The notes under the pieces are model-generated. The model worked only from the letters and a program-made list of their open reading frames with translations, was not told where the DNA came from and made no database searches. A DNA stretch of 64,000 nucleotides from Cryobacterium ruanii. GTDB taxonomy: Bacteria > Actinomycetota > Actinomycetes > Actinomycetales > Microbacteriaceae. The position numbers and the translations under genes were made by a program. Below are positions 2,929 through 44,585 of the stretch, one piece after another. Location: NCBI RefSeq assembly GCF_004404055.1, contig NZ_SOHK01000005.1, forward strand, positions 124,001 through 188,000. Direction: 5' to 3'. Numbering within the stretch: position 1 is the first letter of the stretch; every line of letters begins with the position of its first letter.

Positions 2929-3017
2929 GAGGACACCGTATTCAAAACCCCGCCGCATTTCTAAGCGATTGCCGAAGTTGCGTTCCAGACCGGGTTGGTT
3001 AAGTTGTCCTCCATGAC

Positions 3018-3260
3018 TCAAGCATCGGCATCGGCATCGGCAGCCGGCACCGGCACCGTCACAGCCGCTTCGTCCGAAGAAGGTTCCCCGTGCAAGCACG
3101 GTGCTTGCCTCCGGCCGAGAGCTTGTGGAGGCGCCTGATGGACAGCCGGGCGCACGATCGTGAAACCTCCGAACAGCAGCACCGCTTCAACGCCGACGAT
3201 GATCCAGTAGCGGCCGGTGACGCCGCGGATTGCCCAACGCAGAAATAGCCATTCACCTGT
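3018..3260 (-). pseudogene. Fragment of a membrane-protein gene
   Basis: A minus-strand frame without a start codon encodes LRWAIRGVTGRYWIIVGVE followed by a hydrophobic run and a proline/alanine-rich tail. The WIIVGVEAVLLFGGFTIV segment looks like a genuine transmembrane helix rather than noise. The frame is blocked upstream by a TGA at 3261-3263 and ends at 3018 inside a hexanucleotide repeat. This suggests a truncated or frameshifted gene. It may instead be a short real protein with an unusual start. Confidence 0.3.
3022..3057. repeat. Short GGCATC/GGCACC tandem repeat
   Basis: About six imperfect hexamer units (three GCATCG, one GCAGCC, two GGCACC) in tandem. The tract lies at the end of the broken membrane-protein frame and upstream of the hydrolase gene. 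Such tracts can change length by slippage. Confidence 0.5.
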
Positions 3261-3263
3261 TCA

Positions 3264-3681
3264 TGAGCGTCGCGACCGTGAAAGCAACGATCACACACAT
3301 TTTTCAGAAGATCGACACCACCAACCGAGTGCAGCTGGCGATAATGGTGCGCAACGCAGGACTGCTCTGATCCCCCTCAAATTCATCCTGTTCGTTGGAG
3401 GTGGTTCCCCTCCCGGGCAGCCTTTGTCCAGCGGATCTGTTGGTCGGGGTGGGTCAGGGCCAACTGCTGCTCTGCAGCGCCAACGCTCATGCCCTGCGGA
3501 TGTGATTCGAGATCCGCGAGCACTTACCGTATCGGGCGCAAACAGGGATCGTGAACCCGCAAAGCACCTCCGTCTGGGAAGTGACGCTCATGAAAGCACC
3601 TTTTCCTGGGGGCCGCACGTCGAAACCCAGGTGATTGCTGTGGGAACTCGATATGTCACCTCGGCCGCTCCAGTGGAGTCG
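3264..3681. other. Intergenic stretch, no gene recognised
   Basis: Roughly 420 bases. Open frames on both strands (for example a plus-strand frame from 3217) have no protein-like composition or recognisable motif. This may be decayed accessory DNA. Confidence 0.4.
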
Positions 3682-4563
3682 TTAGTTATCGTGCTCGGCG
3701 TTCGGTATGAGCAAAGGCATGTCGGCTGGGGGCGGCACGACCACGACCGGGCACGGCATACTGATCAGCAGGTCGTGAGCTACCGAGCCGAGTAACAGCC
3801 CAGCCATCATCCCCCGTCCGTGGGTGCCGACCACGACCATTTCAGCATGCTCAGCCGCGTCGGTTAGGACCAAAGCAGCAGATCCGTGTTCGAGGGTGTC
3901 TCGAACCATCACGGTCGGATGCTCGGCGCGGACCCGTGCGACCACTCCTGCCAGAATTTCGGCGTGTGCCATTCGTATCTCGTCATAAGGACTAGCACCG
4001 GCGCTCAACCATCCGAGAGCGAGCAGGGTGGGGATGCGCCACGCATGCACGACCGACAGTTCACGGCCGAGCCGCTCGGCTTCCCGAGCAGCGAAGTCCA
4101 CCGCAAGGTGAGAGGTTTCGTCGTCATCCACGCCGACGACGACGGAACCGTTATACGGCACCCAGTCTGTGGGCACGATAACGAGGGGGCAGCTCACCCC
4201 CGCTGCGATCTGGTGGCGCAATGTTCCATAAAGGGAGCCCGCGGCCTCACGCGTACCGATAACCAGCAGATCGGCATCCGCGGCGGAAATCAACAGCTCC
4301 TGGCGCGGCGCGCCTCGTCGTACCGACGTCATCACCTGCACGGCGGGCGCGTCGCGTCTCACCCGACTCGCGGCATCCATCAACATCTGTTCGTAAGCCG
4401 GAAGAACCCGGTCCTTCGTGAGCGTCGTCGGCAATCTGGCTAGATCGATGACAGTGGTGAGTTCGAGGGATACGTGAATCGTGCGGGCACGCTCGATCAC
4501 CCAGTCGAGCGCAGCGCGGCTTCCCGTGCCGCCGTTCAGCGCAAGAACAATTCTCTCGGCCAT
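3682..4563 (-). CDS. Universal stress protein with two Usp domains
   Basis: A 293-residue tandem UspA-family protein, probably a cytoplasmic nucleotide-binding stress protein. The N-terminal domain starts with IVLALNGGTGSRAALDW and ends near SCPLVIVP. The second domain begins at SVVVGVDDDETS and carries the ATP-binding pattern GTHGRG followed by GSVAHDL. The first domain has GTREAAGSLYG in the equivalent place, so its nucleotide site is degenerate. The start at 4563 has AGGAG six bases upstream and is better than the longer frame from 4614. It is monocistronic. Family assignment is firm; the stress it answers is unknown. Confidence 0.88.
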   Translation of the reverse strand: MAERIVLALNGGTGSRAALDWVIERARTIHVSLELTTVIDLARLPTTLTKDRVLPAYEQMLMDAASRVRRDAPAVQVMTSVRRGAPRQELLISAADADLLVIGTREAAGSLYGTLRHQIAAGVSCPLVIVPTDWVPYNGSVVVGVDDDETSHLAVDFAAREAERLGRELSVVHAWRIPTLLALGWLSAGASPYDEIRMAHAEILAGVVARVRAEHPTVMVRDTLEHGSAALVLTDAAEHAEMVVVGTHGRGMMAGLLLGSVAHDLLISMPCPVVVVPPPADMPLLIPNAEHDN

Positions 4564-35661: not shown

Positions 35662-37089
35662 TCACACGCGAAGCTCGGAATCAGAATCGTCGAGATCAGC
35701 GAGACGCAGTTTGACGGTACTGTGCTTCGCCTCGTTCAATTTGGCACCATCCAGTTCTACGGGTAGGTCGAGCGTGTCGACTTGCGCTGCCGGTGCCTCC
35801 AGCTCGGGCGCGGTCAGCTTGCGTGGGGAATCGTGGATGATGGCCGGTTCGGTGAGCAGCCCGATCTTGGTCTGGTCGATCCCCGGAAACTGCCGAGCGG
35901 TCACCAGCACCCGCGACTCCAGCGAGTTGGCGAACTTGTTGTAGCTGTCCACCGTGCGCTCGAGTGCCTTGCGCAGCGACTCGGCATGGCCGCTCAAAGC
36001 ACCAAGCCGCTGGTATAGGGAATTGCCCAGGTCGAACAGTTTTTGCGCCTCGTCGGTGACCGCCTGCTGCTGCCAGGTGAAGGCAACCGTTTTCAGCACC
36101 GCCCACAGGTTTACCGGTGATGCCAGGGCCACCCGTTTGCTGAACGAGTAGTCGAGAATCGACGGGTCTGCTTCGAGCGCTGCCGACAACAGCGACTCGC
36201 TCGGAATGAACGCGATCACGAATTCCGGGCTGGCATCGAAGCCTTCCCAGTAGGTCTTCTTGGCCAGGGAGTCGATGTGGGCGCGCACGGCCTTCACATG
36301 CTTGTCGATCAGTATCTTGCGCCGGGCACCCTCCTCGCCGGTGGCCGTGAAGGCGATGGTGCTTGCCTCGATGTAGTGCTCGAGCGGAACCTTGGCGTCG
36401 ATCGCGATCGACTTGTTGCCGGGCAGGCGCACGACCATGTCCGGCCGGCCGAGGCCGGCATCTGTCGAGATGTTGGTCTGGGTGTTGAAGTCCACGTACT
36501 GGGCGAGGCCGGCCGCTTCGACCACGCGCCGCAGCTGCGTTTCACCCCAAACTCCTCGGGTGCTGTTGGAGCGCAGTGCGCTCGCGAGGGACTCGGTGGT
36601 CACCCGCAGCTGCTGGTCCGAAATCTGCGCCTGCTTGAGTTGCTCCGAGAGCGAACCGTACTGTGCGCTGCGCTGTAATTCAAGCTCGGTGACCTTCTCC
36701 TGCATAGTGCGCAGGGTCTCCCGCACCGGGCTGAGAGCCTCCAGTACGAGGTGTTCGCGCTTCTCCCGCTCGGACTGCAGCTGCTGGTCGGAACGTTGCC
36801 GCTCGACGGTCTCACGTGCCGTGGCACGGTCGTGGTCGATCTGAGCGCTGAGGCCGTCGACGGTGGCCAGCGCGGCAGAGAGCTCACTTTGCAGGGCTGC
36901 GCGAACGCTCGCCTCGCTCGCCCGGACCTCGACGAGAGTCACCTGGTGGCGTGCCTCGACCACAGCGGGGTCGGTGGCCCCGGCGGCCGGGGTTCCGGCG
37001 CGGCGACGTTGCAGCAACACGATAGTCACCAGGGCGCCCAGGGCGGCACCGATGACGAGACCAACGATCAAACTCAGTAGTGGATCCAT
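35662..37089 (-). CDS. rmuC: DNA recombination protein RmuC
   Basis: A 475-residue RmuC-family protein: one N-terminal membrane helix (LIVGLVIGAALGALVTIVLL), a long coiled coil (residues 45-170) and a nuclease-like domain with WGETQLRRVVEAAGL, RPDMVVRLPGNKSIAIDAKVP (the PD-(D/E)XK-like core) and PEFVIAFIPSESLLSAAL. RmuC limits inversions at short inverted repeats in E. coli. The ATG at 37089 lies six bases behind CAGACT, a variant of the TAGACT box. The C-terminal 60 residues are acidic and variable. Confidence 0.92.
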   Translation of the reverse strand: MDPLLSLIVGLVIGAALGALVTIVLLQRRRAGTPAAGATDPAVVEARHQVTLVEVRASEASVRAALQSELSAALATVDGLSAQIDHDRATARETVERQRSDQQLQSEREKREHLVLEALSPVRETLRTMQEKVTELELQRSAQYGSLSEQLKQAQISDQQLRVTTESLASALRSNSTRGVWGETQLRRVVEAAGLAQYVDFNTQTNISTDAGLGRPDMVVRLPGNKSIAIDAKVPLEHYIEASTIAFTATGEEGARRKILIDKHVKAVRAHIDSLAKKTYWEGFDASPEFVIAFIPSESLLSAALEADPSILDYSFSKRVALASPVNLWAVLKTVAFTWQQQAVTDEAQKLFDLGNSLYQRLGALSGHAESLRKALERTVDSYNKFANSLESRVLVTARQFPGIDQTKIGLLTEPAIIHDSPRKLTAPELEAPAAQVDTLDLPVELDGAKLNEAKHSTVKLRLADLDDSDSELRV

Positions 37090-37164
37090 GGTTTGAGTCT
37101 GCCAGAGCCCACCGACATTGGCTAAATGACACTCGGACCGGCCTAAATGCTGCGATGCGTCACA

Positions 37165-37779
37165 CTAGGTGAGCGCCATCGGCCCGTGCGTCGACGCGTG
37201 CTCCTGGGTGGCGACCGGTCCGATTACTCCGACCTTGACCCGGGTCACGTGGGCGAGCTGCTCGAGCGTGTCGACCTCGTGGCGTTTGGCCGCGTGAATC
37301 ATTATGGCCGCGCACGCCTCGGCGTCGGCGAGCGCATTGTGGTGCGAGAAGTCCTCAAAACCGGCCGCCATGGCAGCGACCGGCAGCCGATACGACTCCA
37401 GGTGGTAGGTGCGGCGGGCAACCTGCAGGCTGCAGACATAGCGAAAATCTGGAACCGGCTGACCGGTCACGAGCGACGCCGTCTTGACCACGCCGAGATC
37501 GAAACCGGCATTGTGGGCGACCAGATAGTCGTCACCGACGAAGGCGACCAGCTGTGGAAGCTGCCTGGCCCAGGTGGCGGCACCCACGACATCCGCTGCG
37601 GTGATGCCGTGAATGCGGGTGTTCCATTCGGAGAACGCATCGTGGCCGGGCGGCGGCTGGATAAGCCAATAGGCCGAATCGACGACCACGCCGTCATGCA
37701 CTTTCACCATCCCGACCGAGCACGCCGAGGCGCCCGAGGAGTTGGCGGTTTCGAAGTCGATCGCGGTGAAATTCAGCAC
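37165..37779 (-). CDS. DEDDh-type 3'-5' exonuclease (DnaQ-like)
   Basis: A 204-residue exonuclease. The four acidic residues and the His of the DEDDh family are visible: FTAIDFETAN (Exo I, residues 4-13), LVAHNAGFDLGVV (Exo II, near 86) and HHNALADAEACA (Exo III, near 145). It resembles the stand-alone DnaQ-like exonucleases related to the polymerase III epsilon subunit. The C-terminal 35 residues have no known motif. The likely start is GTG at 37779. Substrate (DNA or RNA) unknown. Confidence 0.87.
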   Translation of the reverse strand: MLNFTAIDFETANSSGASACSVGMVKVHDGVVVDSAYWLIQPPPGHDAFSEWNTRIHGITAADVVGAATWARQLPQLVAFVGDDYLVAHNAGFDLGVVKTASLVTGQPVPDFRYVCSLQVARRTYHLESYRLPVAAMAAGFEDFSHHNALADAEACAAIMIHAAKRHEVDTLEQLAHVTRVKVGVIGPVATQEHASTHGPMALT

Positions 37780-37855: not shown

Positions 37856-38929
37856 GTGGCTCTTACAATCGCAATCGTCGGACTCCCCAACGTGGGCAAG
37901 TCCACCCTGTTCAACGCCCTGACCAAGAACAACGTGCTCGCGGCGAACTACCCGTTCGCGACGATCGAACCCAATGTCGGAATCGTGAACCTTCCCGATT
38001 CGCGCCTGGCCGACCTGGCAACCATCTACGGCAGCAAGGCCCTGCTGCCGGCGCCGGTGTCGTTCGTCGACATCGCCGGCATCGTCAAGGGCGCGAGTGA
38101 GGGGGAGGGGCTCGGCAACAAGTTCCTCGCCAACATCCGCGAAGCGGATGCCATCGCTCAGGTCATTCGCGGATTCGCCGACCCCGACGTGGTGCACGTC
38201 GACGGTAAGGTCAACCCGGCCGGCGACATGGAGACGATCAATACCGAGCTGATCCTCGCCGACCTGCAGACCCTCGAGAAGGCCGTGCTGCGCTTCGAGA
38301 AAGAGGTCAAGGGGCGCAAGCTGCCCGCCATCGTTCTGGAGACCGCTCTCAAGGCGCAGGCTGTCCTCGACGGTGGCCAGCCGCTTTCCTCCGCCACGCT
38401 CGATATCGAGCCGATCCGTGAGCTCGGCCTGCTGACCGCGAAGCCGTTCATCTACGTCTTCAACGTCGACGAGGCCGTGCTGCAGGATCAGGCGAGGCTC
38501 GACACCCTCGCCGCGCTCGTCGCTCCGGCGAACGCCGTTTTCCTTGACGCCAAGCTCGAGAGCGAACTGAGCGAACTCGACGCCGAGGACGCCGCCGAGA
38601 TGCTCGCCTCGACCGGCCAAGCCGAGAGCGGCCTCGACCAGCTCGCCCGCATCGGCTTCGACACCCTGGGGCTGCAGACCTATCTCACGGCCGGTCCGAA
38701 AGAGTGCCGCGCCTGGACTATCCACAAGGGCTGGACCGCCCCGCAGGCCGCCGGAGTCATTCATACCGACTTCCAGAAGGGGTTCATCAAGGCCGAGATC
38801 TTCTCCTTCGAAGACCTCATGGCCGCCGGTTCGATCGCCGAGGCCCGCTCCAAGGGCAAAGCCCGCATCGAGGGCAAGGAATACGTCATGCAGGACGGCG
38901 ACGTGGTCGAATTTAGGTTTAACGTCTAA
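37856..38929 (+). CDS. ychF: Redox-regulated ATPase/GTPase YchF (OLA1 family)
   Basis: A complete 357-residue Obg-like ATPase that binds ribosomes and hydrolyses ATP in preference to GTP. Motifs are [15 protein letters not shown] (P-loop), the switch region IVDIAG (here [18 protein letters not shown]), the modified specificity motif FNVDE near residue 203, and the C-terminal TGS domain ending in VVEFRFNV. The last codons (GAATTTAGGTTTAAC) use TTT and AGG, rare in this gene, so the 3' end may be foreign. Four more copies of this terminal segment lie downstream at 40177, 42814, 43648 and 44556. Confidence 0.95.
38900..38929 (+). repeat. ychF 3'-tail repeat, copy 1 (inside ychF)
   Basis: The last 30 bases of the intact ychF, encoding DVVEFRFNV and a TAA stop. 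It differs from the downstream copy at 43648 at 10 of 30 positions, nearly all at synonymous sites. Confidence 0.85.
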
Positions 38930-38956
38930 TCAGGCCGGCCAAGGCCGCTTCTTGCA

Positions 38957-39011
38957 GGTCGAGGAGGTCCGCCAGAGCCTTTTCTGATGGTCGAGGAGGC
39001 CCGCGAGGGCC
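38957..39011. repeat. Two REP-like 23-bp repeats behind ychF
   Basis: GGTCGAGGAGGtCCGCcAGa (from 38957) and GGTCGAGGAGGcCCGCgAGg (from 38989) are 20/23 identical and 32 bp apart. The second contains the palindrome GGCCCGCGAGGGCC. They lie exactly between the ychF stop and the truncated higA, so they may mark the junction. Similar GGTCGAGGAGGCC motifs are common between genes of Microbacteriaceae, from general knowledge. Confidence 0.6.
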
Positions 39012-39344
39012 GTCTCGAGCGCGGTGTCCGTCGGTGTGCCGCCTCGCCGCATCAACGAGGTCGTGCACGGCCAGCGTCGAATCACCGCGAACACGGCTCT
39101 CCGCCTGGCCAGGTACTTCGGCACCTCGGCGCAATTCTGGTTGACGTTGCAGGACCGGCATGACCGCGATATTGCCGAGGATCGCATGGCTGAGCAGATT
39201 GCGGCAATCACTCCGCGCCGCCCGCGGGACAAAGACCCTTCTTTCGAGGCACGGCGAACCTGGTGGGCGGAGAGCGGACTAGCATTCGGTTATGCTCACG
39301 GTCGACTCGCTCAGGAACCTCCTCGCAACGGGCCGTTCGGGTGA
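39012..39344 (+). pseudogene. 5'-truncated HigA-type antitoxin gene
   Basis: The frame encodes VPPRRINEVVHGQRRITANT, then ALRLARYFGTSAQFWLTLQ, the second half of the Xre-family helix-turn-helix of HigA antitoxins. It continues through IAEDRMAEQIAAITPR. The normal N-terminus (HPGEVL...F) is missing and is replaced by REP-like DNA. The frame also runs past the usual end and overlaps the next gene's start. No toxin gene is next to it. It resembles the second higA copy at 42394. Confidence 0.7.
39280..39285 (+). promoter_or_regulatory. Leaderless-type -10 box for the gene at 39292
   Basis: TAGCAT ends six bases before the ATG at 39292. The box lies inside the truncated higA frame. Confidence 0.5.
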
Positions 39345-40173
39345 CCTTGCGGCCCGACTCGCTTCCGTTGAGCCGTACGAGCGCCGCGCGGCGTGCAAGC
39401 CCCTGGTTGGTCAGGCCAAGGCCATCCTGTGCGCGAGTTCAGCATCGACGGTGACTTCGTGGCTTCGCGATCTGCGAGCAGACTATTCCGGGGGGTACGC
39501 GCAATTCGTTGACGCCTGGACAGGGCCATTGGAACTAGGGCACTGGGATGCGGCGACCACCGTCCTGCTGGCCTCCAAAGTGCCCGCTCAGGCCGCGAAA
39601 GTCTGGCCGATACCAGAGGACCGTTCGTTTGCGCAGTGGGTGTACCCGGCCTTGTTCCCCAACGACCTCATCGCGTTCGTCGATCAATGGTCTTCGGATT
39701 TCGCAGCGAATCCCAAGAACTGGGACCGTAACCGGGGTCGGGCCGTGATGTATGAGTGGATTGAAGAAGGTCTCGTCGAGGCACCACATCATGATGGAGC
39801 TGTCTTGATGCTGATCAGCGGTTGGGCTGACAGGCCGGGGAAGCCGCTTTTGTACTGGCTGCTTGCGAGACCGAAAGTCACCAGGGTGCTCTTCGCTCGT
39901 CTCTTCACGACGCGTGGCATCAAAGGTGCTTCTTTGAGGCAGAGCGACCGGAGTGATGTCACCGATCCACTTCGAACAGTGGTCGTGCCCGGGCTCGTGG
40001 AGGCTGGAGTGTGGAGTCGGAGCTTCGTCGTTCAAGGCGTCGAGTCAGCCTTGAGAAGTGATCTGCCCGCCTACCAGCGCCGCTGGTTCGTTCAGCTCGG
40101 TGCAGACCTGGGTCTGCCGGCGGCGGGGACGACCGCACTCGCTCGCTCACCCGGTTCAGGGGTTGTTCTGTAA
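39292..40173 (+). CDS. Hypothetical protein in ychF-tail segment A
   Basis: A 293-residue protein that I do not recognise. It is Trp-rich (for example SAQWVYPALFPNDL-like FAQWVYPALFPNDL and NWDRNRGRAVMYEWIEEGLV) with no membrane helix, signal peptide or obvious catalytic motif; predicted content is mostly helical. A TAGCAT box six bases before the ATG supports its being expressed. The stop codon lies only three bases before the ychF tail at 40177, so its 3' end may have been cut off when the segment formed. It may be the N-terminal part of a longer protein elsewhere. Confidence 0.6.
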   Translation: MLTVDSLRNLLATGRSGDLAARLASVEPYERRAACKPLVGQAKAILCASSASTVTSWLRDLRADYSGGYAQFVDAWTGPLELGHWDAATTVLLASKVPAQAAKVWPIPEDRSFAQWVYPALFPNDLIAFVDQWSSDFAANPKNWDRNRGRAVMYEWIEEGLVEAPHHDGAVLMLISGWADRPGKPLLYWLLARPKVTRVLFARLFTTRGIKGASLRQSDRSDVTDPLRTVVVPGLVEAGVWSRSFVVQGVESALRSDLPAYQRRWFVQLGADLGLPAAGTTALARSPGSGVVL

Positions 40174-40176
40174 CGT

Positions 40177-40206
40177 AACGTGGTGGAGTTCCGCTTCAAC
40201 GTGTAG
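40177..40206 (+). repeat. ychF 3'-tail repeat, copy 2
   Basis: Thirty bases encoding NVVEFRFNV and a TAG stop, with no ychF body in front. The core GTGGAGTTCCGCTTCAACGT is identical to copy 4; the two copies match at 28 of 30 positions. Confidence 0.85.
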
Positions 40207-40339
40207 AGGGCATGCCTTTGGCGGCAAGAACGATACGGTCGGGGTGCCGATTCTGATCGGTGGTGCCGCATCCCCTCTAAACGACGTGGTACGTGTCAGA
40301 GTGAAGACGGGTCGGCGTGGTCGGGCCGGGATCGAGTCG

Positions 40340-40707
40340 GTTCAAACGCAGAGCGGAGTTCCCGTCGGGTAGCGGCGTTCATCGGCCGCGGCCGTGACCG
40401 CGCCAAGGTGGCGGACCTGCTCGCGGAAATCCGCGTGGTGACGTTGACCGGTTCGGGTGGTTACGGAAAGACGCGGCTGGCAATGGTGGTCAGCGGGGGA
40501 TGTAGCGGCACGCTTTACCGCCGGGTCCGTTGGGTCGATCGGCAGACGGTGAGCGAACCCAACCGGGTGGCGCCGGCCGTCGCTGAGGCCGTGGGCGTTC
40601 GCTCCGGCTCGCTGGTTGCTTCAGCGGAGGCGGCGCGGCTGTTCGAGATGCAGTCCCCGCCCCCGGCGACCCTGCTGCACCGCTCGGCGCGATCTCGGTG
40701 CCGGTAA
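40340..40707 (+). pseudogene. Fragment of a LuxR/AfsR-type regulator ATPase domain
   Basis: The frame shows FIGRGRDRAKVADLLAE, then VVTLTGSGGYGKTRLAM (a Walker A motif in the typical VTLTGxGGxGKTRLA context), then an ALGV-like EAVGVRSG. This is the start of the nucleotide-binding domain of large LuxR- or BTAD-type regulators. Only about 110 residues remain, a stretch between the P-loop and VRWVD appears deleted, and the rest of the protein is missing. It ends where a hydrolase fragment begins. Confidence 0.6.
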
Positions 40708-40892
40708 TGGTGCTTCGGGGATCGGAGTCCAAACCTATCTTCCCCATCAGCGCACAGCACGTGGTTGACCACGTTCCGAACGCACTACTCTAGGAGATTC
40801 CCGGCGCCGGGCACGCGGCCCCGCTCACGCACCCCGAGGCACTTACAGAGGCGCTCCTCGGGTTCTTCGCGCGAACCCGGACGGACGCGTAA
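40656..40892 (+). pseudogene. C-terminal fragment of an alpha/beta hydrolase with internal stop
   Basis: In the frame ending at TAA 40890-40892 the sequence reads ISVPVMVLRGSESKPIFP, then HVVDHVPNALL, an in-frame TAG, EIPGAGHAAPLTHPEAL and a short tail. The pattern VPVMVLRG...IPGAGHAAPLTHPE is the acid/His end of alpha/beta hydrolases. The in-frame stop and the absence of the first two thirds show that it is dead. Confidence 0.65.
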
Positions 40893-41193
40893 TTCAGGGA
40901 GCCCAAAACTTGGCCCTGCCGGGCCGGGTGCGGGTGAGCGTAGGTAATAAGTCGAGTGAACACCGATCCCAGCAAGGTCCAGCCCCAGACATGGATGCTG
41001 ATCAAGCCACCGGCGGTTCAGATCCGGGTCGCGGGGCCAGCCTCACCCCCTGACTTACACGGTTCAGGCGGCCAAACGCGGGGAGGTGCGACTTGCGGCG
41101 TCTCAGGTTGATTGACCCTGATGCCACATGGTTCTCTGGCGCCACCTCTGGGTTCGTGACCTAAACGCTGTGGATGTGCGTCTGCAGGCGGTG
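40893..41193. other. Non-coding part of segment B
   Basis: About 300 bases between the hydrolase fragment and the stop of the propeller gene. No protein-like frame, repeat or hairpin stood out. It is probably decayed DNA of the same insertion. Confidence 0.35.
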
Positions 41194-42141
41194 TCACCGA
41201 TCGATGCGCACCACCGAGTAGGGAGTGTCGGGCGCCGGGGGAGTGCCGAAGCGGGCGTTCGGCAGGTAGAGCCCGTCACCAAACCTCGCGATCGTCGTGG
41301 GCACCTGGAAGTCGGGGTCCGTGTACCGGTCGATGAGTTCGCCGCTGATCCCGGCTGCATCGAGGCGGATAACGGCGACGGTGTTCAACTGATTCTGCAC
41401 GACATACAGGATGCGCCCGGCGACGAGCAGCCCGTCACCGTTGGGGAGCAGGACCCCACCCAGATCAACGACCGATGCGACGCCGGTCTCGGGGTCGACG
41501 TGGAACAGAATGCCCGTGGAGGACTGGATGACCAAGAGCGCTTGATGGTTGGGGGTCTCCGCGATGCCGTTCGCGTTGAAGCCCGGCTGCTGCATCCAGC
41601 TGCCCGACAGGGGGACGACTTTGATCGCATCCGTCCTAGGGAGCGCGCCGCCCGGTCCGAGGGGGAGCTTATAGAGCTGCGCTTGCTGGCTGTCGGTGAA
41701 CCATGCGGCGTCGCGAGTCATAACGACGTCGTTCACGAACGTTGGCGTATCGGTGAGGGCGTAGCTCTGCAGGAGGTCGCCCGTGGCGGCATCAACGACC
41801 CGCGCCTCGCCGGTGGGCCCGCCCGCAATGAAAAGCCGACCGCGGTTGTCGATCTTCAAGCCGACCGACGGAGTGCCCGGGCCCTCGAGGGTCCTGATCT
41901 CCTCGCCGGTGCGCACGTCGAAGACGTAGACGTCGCCGTCGGCGAGTGAGCCGACGTAGGCAGTGCCGCGCGGGCCGATCGCGATTCCCTCGGGCTGGAA
42001 TCCGTCGGGAAGCGCGATAACATCCTCGAAATGACCGGGCCGTGGCTGCGGTGCGGCGTGGACTGCGGGTATCCCTGAAACAAGGAAGAGAGCACCCAAT
42101 GCGGCGGCGGACAGTTTACGTGCGACGATGCGACTGATCAT
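41194..42141 (-). CDS. Secreted beta-propeller protein (SMP-30/gluconolactonase-like)
   Basis: A 315-residue exported protein. The N-terminus is a signal peptide (ALGALFLVSGIPAVHA, cleavage near residue 29). The rest consists of repeated propeller blades: GFQPEGIAIGPRGTAYVGS, VGLKIDNRGRLFIAGG, FVNDVVMTRDAAWFTDS and GNGDGLLV-like LPNGDGLLVAGRILYVV. This fits the SMP-30/LRE or NHL-type propeller superfamily. The ligand and reaction are unknown. It is the only minus-strand gene in the ychF-tail array and is intact, in contrast to the broken genes around it. Confidence 0.72.
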   Translation of the reverse strand: MISRIVARKLSAAALGALFLVSGIPAVHAAPQPRPGHFEDVIALPDGFQPEGIAIGPRGTAYVGSLADGDVYVFDVRTGEEIRTLEGPGTPSVGLKIDNRGRLFIAGGPTGEARVVDAATGDLLQSYALTDTPTFVNDVVMTRDAAWFTDSQQAQLYKLPLGPGGALPRTDAIKVVPLSGSWMQQPGFNANGIAETPNHQALLVIQSSTGILFHVDPETGVASVVDLGGVLLPNGDGLLVAGRILYVVQNQLNTVAVIRLDAAGISGELIDRYTDPDFQVPTTIARFGDGLYLPNARFGTPPAPDTPYSVVRIDR

Positions 42142-42214
42142 GGCGGTTACAATAGTCCGGCTCGGGCGCTGCCAATAGGCCTGATTGGCCTCGGGCGAAA
42201 ATCACCGGGCCGGT

Positions 42215-42406
42215 CGCGGTTGTGGCGTCGTGAGCGTGTGCCATCGCTGGATCCACGGTCGACTTGCGCGTGCCGGGCAACCGGCTTGAGCGGCTCAAAG
42301 GTGAGCGAGCCGGCCAACACAGCATCAGGGTCAACGACCAGTCGCGGATCTGCTCCGTGTGGACCGACGCTGGCCCAGAGAAGGTAAAGGTCATTGACTA
42401 TCACTG
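42215..42406 (+). pseudogene. Degenerate HigB-type toxin gene
   Basis: Two pieces of a RelE/HigB-like toxin are visible in different frames. LWRRERVPSLDPR matches the N-terminal region, and DLRVPGNRLERLKGERAGQ followed by IRVNDQSRICSVWTDAG and VIDYH plus stop matches the C-terminal region. The helix between DPR and DLRVP is missing and the frame changes there, so the toxin cannot be made. Its stop overlaps the start of the following higA, as in intact higBA operons. Toxin sequence remains, but the active protein does not. Confidence 0.7.
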
Positions 42407-42706
42407 ACAAGAGAGACAAGCTCGCGCCGATTCACCCAGGCGAGGTCCTCAACGAGCACTTCATTGAGGCGCTCGGCATCACCCAGAACAAGCTTTCTGT
42501 ATCGATTCGTGTTCCGCCGCGACGGATCAACGAGATCGTCCTTGGAAAGCGCGGTATCTCGGCCGATACCGCCCTGCGCTTGGCCAAGTACTTCGGAACA
42601 TCAGCGCAGTTCTGGCTCAATCTGCAGTCGCAGTTCGACCTCGATGTCGCTGAAGGACCGTGCGGCAGAAGAAATCAACGCCACCACCCCGCTCCGCGTC
42701 GCCTGA
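42394..42706 (+). pseudogene. Frameshifted HigA-type antitoxin gene
   Basis: The frame from TTG 42394 reads LAPIHPGEVLNEHFIEALGI, then RVPPRRINEIVLGKRGISA and YFGTSAQFWLNLQSQFDLDV, a near-complete Xre-type HigA. Close to 42650 (GCTGAAGGACCG) one extra base shifts the frame: the expected end DRAAEEINATTPLRVA continues in another frame to a TGA at 42704-42706. In the original frame translation runs on to 42843 and ends, by chance or design, in the ychF tail (PVEFRFND). The DNA-binding part may still be made. With the broken higB, the module is probably inactive. Confidence 0.75.
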
Positions 42707-42813
42707 CCCTCCTGTCGCATTACCCTGCAGCAGCACAATCCCTCGCGCACGCCATAAATTTGGGGGTGACATGCTTTAGGCACCGGCGAGATTTCGATGT
42801 CTGTAAACGACTG

Positions 42814-42843
42814 AATCCCGTGGAGTTCAGATTCAACGATTAG
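42814..42843 (+). repeat. ychF 3'-tail repeat, copy 3
   Basis: Thirty bases encoding NPVEFRFND and a TAG stop. It matches copy 4 at 23 of 30 positions and shares the AATCC start with copy 5. Confidence 0.8.
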
Positions 42844-42896
42844 AGTGAACCCTTTCGAGTTGATCATCACAGCAGCATCAATTGAAGGAGACCATC

Positions 42897-43571
42897 GTGC
42901 CTGTCATCGCCATCATCGGAGCCGGACCGGGACTCGGAGCAGCAGTTGCGCGAAGGTTCGGGAGCGAAGGCTATTCAATTGCTCTGATCGCCAGGAACCA
43001 GTCGAAACTAGACGCGCTGGCTGCCGAGCTCACCGCTGCCGGCTTCACCGCGAGTGCTTACGCTGCGGATGTCCGCACGCCGGCGTCGCTCGAAGCTGCC
43101 CTTGCGAACGCCGCGGCAGAGCTCGGGCCCATTACCGCGCTGCAATATAGCCCGCTTCCGTCACGCGACTACCTGAAGCCGGTGCTTGAGATGACGCCCG
43201 AGCTGGCGTTAGAGGCACTGCAGTTCTCGGCCCTCGGGCTCATCCACGCGGTGCGAGCAGTGCTTCCGGCGATGCGGCAGGCAGGTAGCGGCAGCATCAT
43301 CATGATCAACGGCGGAACCTCGGTCAAGGCCCGCGCCGGCTACGCCGGCACATCGGTCGCTTTCCCGGCTGAGAGCGCCTACGGCGAGATGCTCCACGAG
43401 GCCCTCGGGGATGAGGGTATCCGTGTCAACCAACTGGTGATTCCCGGCGGCATCCCGCAGCTTCAGCTTGCCAACGGCATCGACGGGGTCGCCGATCGCA
43501 TCTGGGACCTCCACACCGTGGCCGGTCCGTTCCGCACCATGCTCATCCCGCTTGAGGACGGTCGGGAGTAG
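42897..43571 (+). CDS. Short-chain dehydrogenase/reductase-like protein 1
   Basis: A 224-residue Rossmann-fold protein. The cofactor motif is IIGAGPGLGAAVARRFG (GxxxGxG type), and AAELGPITALQYSPLPSRD replaces the usual NNAG block. The catalytic region has a Ser in INGGTSVKA and SAYGEMLHEAL, where the YxxxK of classical SDRs reads Tyr-Gly-Glu-Met-Leu, so the catalytic Lys is absent. The GTG at 42897 follows GAAGGAGA. The protein is a paralogue of the next gene (roughly 80% identical by eye). Activity as a normal oxidoreductase is doubtful. Confidence 0.82.
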   Translation: MPVIAIIGAGPGLGAAVARRFGSEGYSIALIARNQSKLDALAAELTAAGFTASAYAADVRTPASLEAALANAAAELGPITALQYSPLPSRDYLKPVLEMTPELALEALQFSALGLIHAVRAVLPAMRQAGSGSIIMINGGTSVKARAGYAGTSVAFPAESAYGEMLHEALGDEGIRVNQLVIPGGIPQLQLANGIDGVADRIWDLHTVAGPFRTMLIPLEDGRE

Positions 43572-43647
43572 GGCGGAGGCTGCCCTCGTTCTCAATTGGA
43601 CTGTAGGGCGAGAGCACAGTCATATATTTGACGTTGATCGGTGGGGA

Positions 43648-43677
43648 AACATGGTGGAGTTCCGCTTCAACGTTTAG
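43648..43677 (+). repeat. ychF 3'-tail repeat, copy 4
   Basis: Thirty bases encoding NMVEFRFNV and a TAG stop, 76 bp after the first SDR gene. It is the closest relative of copy 2 (28/30). Confidence 0.85.
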
Positions 43678-43696
43678 GCGTAGGATTCGCCCGCAC

Positions 43697-43741
43697 GTCG
43701 TGACGACGATACGCCGTCACGACAACACGTGTCACGACAAC
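43697..43741. promoter_or_regulatory. Operator-like inverted and direct repeats before the second SDR gene
   Basis: GTCGTGACG (43697-43705) and CGTCACGAC (43715-43723) are a perfect 9-bp inverted repeat with a 9-bp spacer. GTCACGACAAC occurs at 43716 and again at 43731, 15 bp apart. These half-sites lie 24-68 bp before the GTG start at 43765, a likely place for a TetR-type or similar operator. No regulator gene is adjacent. No such sites precede the first SDR gene. Confidence 0.5.
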
Positions 43742-43764
43742 ATCATCAATTGGAGGAACCCACT

Positions 43765-44448
43765 GTGGCTGTTATCGCCATTATCGGAGCCGGACCGGGT
43801 CTCGGAGCGGCAGTTGCGCGAAAGTTTGGGCGCGAAGGCTTTTCGATCGCCCTGATTTCGAGGAATAAGTCGAAGCTTGACGCACTGGCCGCGGAGCTCC
43901 AGACTGCCGGCCTGACCGCGATTGGTTACGCGGCCGACGTGCTCGTGCCGGCGTCCCTTCAGGACGCTCTTGCACGTGCCGCCGCCGAGCTGGGACCCAT
44001 CACTGCGCTGCAGTACAGCCCGCTTCCGTCGCGTGATTACCTGAAGCCGGTGCTCGACCTGACCCCGAAGTTGGCGCTGGAGGCATTGCAGTTCTCGGCT
44101 CTCGGACTCATTCACGCGGTGCGCACGGTGCTGCCGGGAATGCGTCAGGCAGGGCGCGGCAGCATCATCCTGATCAACGGCGGCACCTCCGTGAAGGCAC
44201 GCGCCGGCTTCGCCGGCACCTCGATCGCGTTCCCCGCCGAGAGCGCCTACGGCGAGATGCTCCACGATGCACTCGAAGATGAGGGAATCCGTGTCAGTCA
44301 ACTCGTGATCCCCGGCGGCATCCCCCAACTTCAGCTGCCCAATGGCATCGACGATGTCGCCGCTCGAGTGTGGGACCTTCACGCCGGTACGGGGCCGTTT
44401 CGCACGATGCTCATCCCGCTCGAGGACGGCAAGGAAGCCTCTGACTAG
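43765..44448 (+). CDS. Short-chain dehydrogenase/reductase-like protein 2
   Basis: A 227-residue paralogue of the preceding SDR-like protein, with the same landmarks: IIGAGPGLGAAVARKFG, TALQYSPLPSRDYLKPVL, INGGTSVKARAGFAGTS and SAYGEMLHDALEDEG. As in its twin, the YxxxK Lys is replaced by Leu. The GTG at 43765 follows GGAGGAA. The two leaders share CATCAATTGrAGGA, so the duplication included the start region, but only this copy has the operator-like repeats. The next ychF tail follows after 107 bp. Confidence 0.82.
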   Translation: MAVIAIIGAGPGLGAAVARKFGREGFSIALISRNKSKLDALAAELQTAGLTAIGYAADVLVPASLQDALARAAAELGPITALQYSPLPSRDYLKPVLDLTPKLALEALQFSALGLIHAVRTVLPGMRQAGRGSIILINGGTSVKARAGFAGTSIAFPAESAYGEMLHDALEDEGIRVSQLVIPGGIPQLQLPNGIDDVAARVWDLHAGTGPFRTMLIPLEDGKEASD

Positions 44449-44555
44449 GACGCCTCGGGGGACTGATGTAGACCAACGAGCTACCCGGCTCGGTCTGTGC
44501 TTGACACCGATGCTCAGTAGACGGGCAAGGTGCACGAGATGTCGATGAGTGACGA

Positions 44556-44585
44556 AATCCGGTGGAGTTCCGCTTCAGCGCTTAG
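44556..44585 (+). repeat. ychF 3'-tail repeat, copy 5
   Basis: Thirty bases encoding NPVEFRFSA and a TAG stop, 25/30 identical to copy 4. It is the last copy seen and may mark the right end of the array. Confidence 0.8.

Follow-up and report, generated by a model that had tools for sequence, protein, structure and literature searches.

The 64,000-nucleotide stretch of the Cryobacterium ruanii genome analyzed here (contig NZ_SOHK01000005.1, positions 124,001 to 188,000 of the forward strand; hereafter, the window) carries the gene ychF, followed by four segments that are delimited by five copies of the ychF 3′ end. We term the segments cassettes and the repeated junctions sites. The left half of a site is either native ychF coding sequence (B) or a foreign arm (P), and the right half is either the ychF tail (B′) or a second foreign arm (P′); scores in bits refer to a profile model of the site, and other genomes and loci are given by G and L numbers. 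The features of the locus are as follows:

37856..38929, + strand: ychF (open reading frame, ORF), the host gene, whose 3′ end is the probable insertion target
38883..38929, + strand: site 1, native left half (GACGGCGACGT) and the ychF tail of cassette 1 (VEFRFNV-stop), 31.1 bits
38906..40182, + strand: cassette 1, 1277 bp, recurring at full length in G009, G031, G034, and G015
39024..39344, + strand: HigA-type antitoxin gene lacking its N-terminus (TIGR02607, E 1.2e-16, from model position 30)
39292..40173, + strand: 293-amino-acid (aa) ORF of cassette 1, of no family (no Pfam, NCBIfam, or PADLOC match)
40155..40206, + strand: site 2, cassette-type (P half and ychF-tail half), 51.8 bits
40183..42819, + strand: cassette 2, 2637 bp, between sites 2 and 3, parts of which recur in G009, G031, G020, G017, and G015
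41194..42141, − strand: 315-aa SMP-30/strictosidine-synthase-like beta-propeller protein (PF20067 above cut-off, PF08450 below)
42394..42843, + strand: HigA-type antitoxin gene (TIGR02607, E 7.6e-30), the ORF of which enters the tail at site 3
42795..42843, + strand: site 3, 27.6 bits
42820..43653, + strand: cassette 3, 834 bp, with one short-chain dehydrogenase/reductase (SDR) gene; 96.0–96.4% identity over 826 bp in G009 and G031
42897..43571, + strand: SDR of cassette 3 (PF00106, E 1.8e-24)
43628..43677, + strand: site 4, 47.5 bits
43654..44561, + strand: cassette 4, 908 bp, with one SDR gene; DNA 81% identical to the SDR region of cassette 3
43765..44448, + strand: SDR of cassette 4 (PF00106, E 7e-21)
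44534..44585, + strand: site 5, the right end of the array, 39.9 bits
44681..45250, + strand: HhH-GPD base-excision repair gene, the far-side anchor of the array (TIGR03252, E 3.1e-88)

A sequence-only reading of the window had reported the five copies as 30-bp segments at 38900, 40177, 42814, 43648, and 44556, all on the + strand. These positions were confirmed, as were its match counts (28/30 between copies 2 and 4, 20/30 between the native end and copy 4), the segment sizes (1277, 2637, 834, and 908 bp), and the presence of one gene, here an SDR gene, in each of the two smallest segments. Two of its descriptions required revision: the repeat was correct for the core but not in extent, as the conserved left arm runs ∼24 bp further upstream, and the segment contents are not all unrelated, given that the SDR genes of segments 3 and 4 are 81% identical in DNA and a HigA-type gene occurs in both segments 1 and 2. 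The five copies score 27.6–51.8 bits, and the rest of the window reaches at most 6.9 bits. With up to two mismatches, GTGGAGTTCCGCTTCA occurs four times in the 64 kb (0.06 expected); at the same tolerance, the core has eight matches in the whole genome, four in the array (three exact and one further) and four scattered, with two in a reversed control. Recent tandem duplication of the SDR cassettes was rejected, since cassette 3 shares more identity with cassettes found in other species (96%) than with cassette 4 (81%), and a tRNA target was rejected because the window is without any tRNA. The host gene has a strong match (E under 1e-140) in 57 of 60 genomes, including this one, and the other three have weak GTPase matches only.

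The region behind ychF was compared across 37 Cryobacterium genomes (36 same-genus genomes and the window's own; 624 kb in total, with some stretches shorter at contig ends). At a threshold of 15 bits, 52 extra site copies were found, every one on the strand of ychF, and no copies reached this threshold in the reversed sequences or in three dinucleotide shuffles. The profile was built from 36 extra copies aligned from these genomes, and those 36 are also among the copies searched, so the scores are in part a product of how the profile was made, which does not apply to the one-sided orientation. At least one extra copy is present in 23/37 genomes (21/37 at 20 bits), with a maximum of six sites in one genome, including that of ychF itself. 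The 52 segments between sites span 147 bp to 7.8 kb, and 46 of them fall within 0.2–3.2 kb, although undetected sites would leave some of these segments too long. An HhH-GPD homolog lies 1.3–16.5 kb past ychF in 25/37 loci.

The segments are movable units, bounded by the recombination site and recurring in other orders in other species. Cassette 1 is present whole, at 99.5–99.8% identity, in G009, G031, and G034 (at the same place) and in G015 (at offset +14362 from the ychF stop), while ychF of these four species is only 91.1–92.4% identical to that of the window; this unit has therefore moved recently, although transfer of a larger stretch could explain the genomes with cassette 1 in the first position. 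A 1236-bp cassette stands first in the array of G025 and second in that of G012, with 98.1% identity over 1236/1236 bp and ychF at 90.0%. Many groups were found in which one cassette end stands before different cassettes or one cassette start follows different ones, and 21/37 genomes have homologs of the cassette 3 and cassette 4 SDRs behind ychF, at many offsets. One inherited block in fixed order, the pattern that the earlier reading had named as contrary to serial insertion, was not seen among these relatives.

The edges of the units coincide with the site. In five junction comparisons, 20-bp windows match at 17–20/20 within the unit and at 2–7/20 from 20–40 bp past the core; a sixth pair, with the same neighbor on both sides, is alike throughout. 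These edges bear on the alternative that the tails are islands of homology between which ordinary homologous recombination has swapped segments among species. The tails are indeed similar, and cassettes have clearly moved between species, but the DNA beyond the site is unrelated in the five comparisons, and the left arm is conserved though it is not ychF sequence. Furthermore, homologous exchange would ordinarily need longer similarity than the ∼25 bp present here. We consider this explanation very improbable; homologous exchange between related species, which the sequence-only reading had also offered, is not needed and leaves unexplained why the edges fall at the same core. Its central proposal, serial insertion at ychF with the tails as recombination sites and an enzyme from elsewhere, is strongly supported by the different orders of the units and by the end of identity at the repeat.

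The site is GTGGTGGA, with GT at its center and two arms, and it is a hybrid of sequences of different origins. Its left half is native coding sequence at ychF, whereas most cassette ends carry the foreign arm P instead; in the alignment of the 36 extra copies, the left-arm consensus tga.GTtg.Tc.GtgacG.AAcgtG precedes GTGGAGTTCcGcTTCAACGT.TAG. The right half is B′ in nearly all sites. In G005, G015, G027, and G036, the ychF protein ends differently (FRFQATSGQK three times, FRHGNTSGGAK once) because the right half has been replaced by P′. The clearest P′ is at an internal site of G015, ∼1.8 kb behind ychF (GTTCCGTCACCAAGCAACGTCTGG), and is nearly the reverse complement of the usual P. G005 (L062) has two P′-type junctions 11.5 kb apart (−41 and +11448 relative to the ychF stop); the same gene (MDGYGGCDGVRT...) occurs behind both, an arrangement suggestive of two related elements in tandem.

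A candidate enzyme is found in large serine recombinases (LSRs) that adjoin such sites. A search of 41 genus genomes for the Recombinase domain (PF07508) gave 43 matches in 30 genomes, and one locus per genome was read. In G036, a 468-aa LSR has its start codon 16 bp from a P.B′ site; no ychF-type site was found at the other 29 loci read. In a scan of named genomes with CGNAACGTGGTGGAGTTCMG, which returned 112 stretches with 114 sites, an LSR adjoins the site in Frigoribacterium sp. PhB116 (L179), Brevibacterium casei (L238), and Phycicoccus elongatus (L144, with a shortened frame), ychF being outside these three stretches. Short resolvase-like ORFs in L153, L210, and L216 gave weak matches and were left out of the LSR counts. 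Among 396 genomes of the order, 15 have a match to the G036 LSR at E 1e-50 or better, and six of these LSRs are at a ychF-type junction: L244 (the same gene as L103), L245, and L246 at P.B′, and L249, L250, and L252 behind a P′-type ychF. Two more are beside a P′-like half, and seven are at neither. The LSR start is within ∼50 bp of P.B′ in L103, L179, L238, L144, L245, and L246, and the gene is just behind the P′-type ychF end in L249, L250, and L252. In a tree of 46 LSRs, the nine site-adjacent and two half-site rows form one fork (support 83/93), with the other 35 outside it; the order set was picked by similarity to L103, and the three named stretches by site alone. LSRs of a single clade adjoin these sites in several actinobacterial families.

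A total of 895 phage records match the LSR, all below 60% identity, the best among the 20 listed having 45% over two thirds of the protein, and 296 plasmid records match, again all below 60%. The site model found nothing above 5 bits at four phage integrase loci, and no site was found when viral contigs were scanned twice.

The surroundings of five LSRs (G536, G578, G537, G466, and G459) reveal whole islands. In four, P.B′ lies behind a P′-type ychF end, at a distance of 8.3 kb (G536, 34.0 bits), 11.8 kb (G578, 38.4 bits), 11.5 kb (G537, 20.9 bits), and 21.8 kb (G466, 24.6 bits); for G459, no right end was found within ∼38 kb. The LSR is at the right end in G536 and G578; in G537 and G466 it immediately follows ychF, at the left end. 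As read by hand, the islands give ychF new tails (VEFRHSATTK, VEFRHGGTSGTGKK, VEFRTGLTSKK, and VEFRSGSASKR), and the tails they have displaced still code for VEF(R/M/P)FNV-stop. Their cargo includes D5-type helicases (G536 and G537), a phage-capsid-like protein (G536), a methylase with a restriction enzyme (G537), and, in G466, a caspase-like protein, an EcoRI-type methylase with a restriction enzyme, and a conjugation coupling protein. The capsid-like protein and D5-type helicase of the 8.3-kb G536 island, at L272:6064-8178 and 2947-4353, accompany the LSR, and on this basis the island may be a small phage satellite.

Serine integrases use a palindromic attP that is unlike attB, and exchange strands at a central dinucleotide. 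The left half of the cassette site is one arm of a roughly 50-bp palindrome: within one island, P matches the reverse complement of P′ at 13/22 (G578), 14/22 (G537), 17/22 (G466), and 16/22 (G036, with the two halves taken from two contigs), values matched by 0/2000 shuffles each, and native B and B′ pair at 7–9/22. Across islands, the G036 P reaches at most 10, and the G036 P′ reaches 15 with the G578 P. Sites of the serine-integrase type, with palindromic attP arms, a different attB, and attL/attR hybrids, were found in four of the five islands compared in this way (G578, G537, G466, and G036), the exception being G536. Across the five left junctions of cassette 1, the base preceding the central GT differs (g, g, g, a, c) and the one following it is the cassette's own; the tail seen at site 1 is kept by cassette 1 in 5/5 genomes. 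This pattern fits an exchange at the central GT. A full P.P′-like palindrome (AGACGTTTTCCGTTACGGAAC-core-GTTCCGTCACGGAATATCGTCTG) was observed on the minus strand of L216, near base 3044, and no ychF was found in that 8-kb stretch.

We consider it likely that the array was built by site-specific insertion of cassettes at the ychF 3′ end, in a manner resembling that of staphylococcal cassette chromosome (SCC) elements, in which an LSR targets this end and cassettes without an LSR are moved in trans. The enzyme of the array is, judging from these sequence features, most likely a serine integrase encoded elsewhere; the absence of an integrase from the array, reported earlier, stands, with no PF00589 match in the array region and no LSR gene in the cassettes of the window. 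In an undisturbed ychF, both arms are those of the host (B.B′), with B′ encoding the C-terminal residues and the stop codon. A serine integrase that inserted P.P′ into B.B′ would leave B.P′ and P.B′, and these products correspond to the B.P′ on ychF and the P.B′ at cassette ends. The enzyme would be the one-clade LSR family, with its activity and capacity for excision presumed, and small cassettes would be moved by it in trans. The LSR may have come and gone in the lineage of the window, as this genome has none.

Each cassette that lands at ychF would supply a working tail, and older tails pushed downstream would decay. All 37 ychF-attached tails read VEFR...stop, and 25 of the 52 displaced tails still read VEFRFN[VN]-stop, which we read as selection at landing and drift afterwards. 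The many internal tails without a stop or a coding match would also suit an inherited array in decay, no longer mobile and built long ago by a serine integrase that has become rare in the genus, as would the single ychF-type site among the 30 LSR loci read from the genus (43 PF07508 matches in 30/41 genomes). The recent movement of cassette 1 between species with ychF 8–9% apart argues against such a relic, which we regard as decidedly unlikely.

Several observations weigh against LSR-driven insertion. Most cassettes begin B′-like rather than P′-like, and an excised circle would then carry P.B′, which is not a textbook attP. Either the LSR would accept this hybrid against B.B′, or the left ends of cassettes would be P′ grown B′-like because the host needs the tail, or another enzyme would be at work. 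The left arm at some internal sites (G015, G024, and G026) is ychF-like and not P-type. Two recurring cassettes differ at 2–3/20 tail bases with the DNA beyond mostly 19–20/20 identical (offsets from the ychF stop: G012 1626 and G025 −23; G009 1254 and G034 1254), which is not what a clean 2-bp exchange predicts. The P/P′ pair of G536 matches at 8/22 only, with 17.7% of shuffles as good; the G036 island was inferred across two contig ends, those of C17 and C24; and the support for the LSR fork (83/93) is short of full. The window's genome has no PF07508 recombinase, and it is one of eight among the 23 array genomes without one (the others being G003, G008, G009, G010, G015, G025, and G034). 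Finally, this genome has 13 matches to PF00589, the tyrosine recombinase family.

These 13 matches, and the commonness of tyrosine recombinases in the genus, raise the alternative that such an enzyme, integron-like, phage, or Xer-type, makes the array in trans, and that the site-adjacent LSRs belong to other elements using the same hot spot. The site can be seen as short inverted arms around an 8-bp center, and one tyrosine recombinase is in the G036 stretch, ∼17 kb behind ychF (PF00589, L098:16572-17945, near the end of the contig carrying the ychF island, the far end of which is taken to hold the LSR). However, the paired arms are ∼22 bp long, the exchange maps near the central GT, and nine LSRs lie at sites. 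In a phmmer search with eight of the genome's own tyrosine recombinases, none was found in the 112 site-bearing named stretches (tyrosine recombinases unlike these eight were not sought). L082, a tyrosine recombinase of the window's genome, was the one candidate examined individually and was rejected: it has matches in 8/41 genus genomes, only some of which carry arrays, and shows no clear link with them. Xer was set aside, as we take the arms of the site to be unlike those of dif sites. A tyrosine recombinase as the enzyme of the array is, on balance, unlikely, and insertion by a serine integrase remains the preferred reading.

Sites without an adjacent enzyme are widespread. In the scan of named genomes, 89/112 stretches are from Micrococcales, as are 75/77 tail-bearing sites by a strict test (a looser test finds tail codons at 80/114 sites), and at all 38 sites with ychF inside the stretch, ychF is upstream on the same strand. 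The P arm of L238, the Brevibacterium LSR site, is shared at 12/16 or better, outside the scanned pattern, by 36/74 LSR-less tail-bearing sites, and by 4/37 control pattern matches without a ychF tail; the P arms of L144 and L179 match it at 7/16, a point against a general link that limits the shared-arm evidence to a single type of LSR. The L238 arm with the core occurs in 46/396 order genomes, with no control match in the table, and 13 of these 46 have at least two matches, each set on one contig and strand. None of the 46 is among the 15 genomes with an LSR match; that sites outnumber enzymes suggests use in trans or relics. Within the family, 28/299 genomes have at least two matches of a strict 23-mer (up to two mismatches), a count that includes a G270 pair that looks like one stretch assembled twice, a G128 pair on two contigs, and a G036 pair off the contig of ychF. 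Among eight multi-match family genomes examined closely, one to five additional sites follow ychF in seven, and for the eighth, G314, the stretch taken contained no ychF. Tentatively, and with slightly more doubt than belief, we propose that many Micrococcales harbor a serine-recombinase cassette-capture system with the role that integrons play in proteobacteria. In it, the ychF 3′ end would be the platform, P.B′ the cassette site, the cassettes mostly small and recombinase-free, and visiting LSR islands or phage satellites the source of the enzyme in trans.

The cargo of the window comprises two HigA-type genes, the 293-aa ORF of no family, an SMP-30-like protein, and two SDRs; PADLOC gave no match for two cassette proteins of the window. 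The HigA-type frame at 42394-42843 reads through the ychF-tail repeat, ending in NPVEFRFND, and is probably a case of a shifted gene end. Elsewhere in the genus, cassettes carry GmrSD-type and PD-T7-3-like defense genes (G015), PemK/MazF-type toxins (G016 and G027), and HipA with a helix-turn-helix partner (G027). A HigA gene follows within 1.1 kb at 13/77 named-genome sites, and at all eight sites sharing the start CGTTATTGACG, including those in Phycicoccus and Brevibacterium.

The ychF system works like SCC, SCCmec, and Enterococcus cassette chromosome (ECC) elements, in that a large serine recombinase (Ccr in those elements) is associated with the 3′ end of a conserved gene, but it is not a member of that group. 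The att sites of SCC and ECC, as described in a passage of PMC6222049, are ∼50 bp with imperfect inverted repeats, like the ychF sites; tandem SCC elements are mentioned in PMC5964201; and a D5_N helicase is noted for one SCC type in a section of PMC7581432, a helicase type also present in two ychF islands. An LSR inside the element with att sites at both ends, as in SCC, is seen in four of the five LSR islands and not in the cassettes of the window, which have no LSR gene. The target is the ychF 3′ end rather than that of rlmH, and 46/52 segments are only 0.2–3.2 kb. Three site-adjacent LSRs fell far short of the Ccr cut-offs, scoring 33.7–63.4 bits for CcrB (cut-off 900), 33.6–45.7 for CcrA (700), and 26.4–43.9 for CcrC (900).

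The resemblance to integrons is limited to the form of the array: small, promiscuous cassettes in tandem and in one orientation, each ending in a recombination site, with toxin-antitoxin cargo and an enzyme in trans to the cassettes. Here, in contrast, insertion is at the end of a housekeeping gene, and the site-adjacent enzyme is a serine recombinase. No IntI-type tyrosine integrase was indicated, with no PF00589 match in the window's array region and a single match, that ∼17 kb behind the G036 ychF, in a phmmer search of the 37 loci with eight of the genome's own integrases.

Site-specific LSRs that target one conserved gene are common in the LSR target catalog of Durrant et al. (PMC10083194), in the main text of which the word ychF does not appear. 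In Streptococcus pneumoniae, a prophage beside ychF is described in part of PMC6375853 as lying upstream of the gene, in its promoter region, with a 14-bp attB; this is a mobile element beside ychF, as here, but not at the 3′ end. No description of a ychF cassette system was found in the literature searched, the coverage of which excluded preprints and most subscription papers. If the proposed mechanism is correct, a large order of bacteria would have a cassette-array system distinct from integrons. Reading the DNA behind ychF could then yield a catalog of its cargo, which comprises toxin-antitoxin, restriction, and GmrSD-type genes along with many unknown ones. The system would also offer a clean test of a puzzle, namely how circles with a hybrid P.B′ site could be substrates for enzymes considered to require attP and attB. 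Directly upstream of ychF in the window, at 35662-37779 on the other strand, are an RmuC-family gene (PF02646) and an ORF that appears exonuclease-like by eye.

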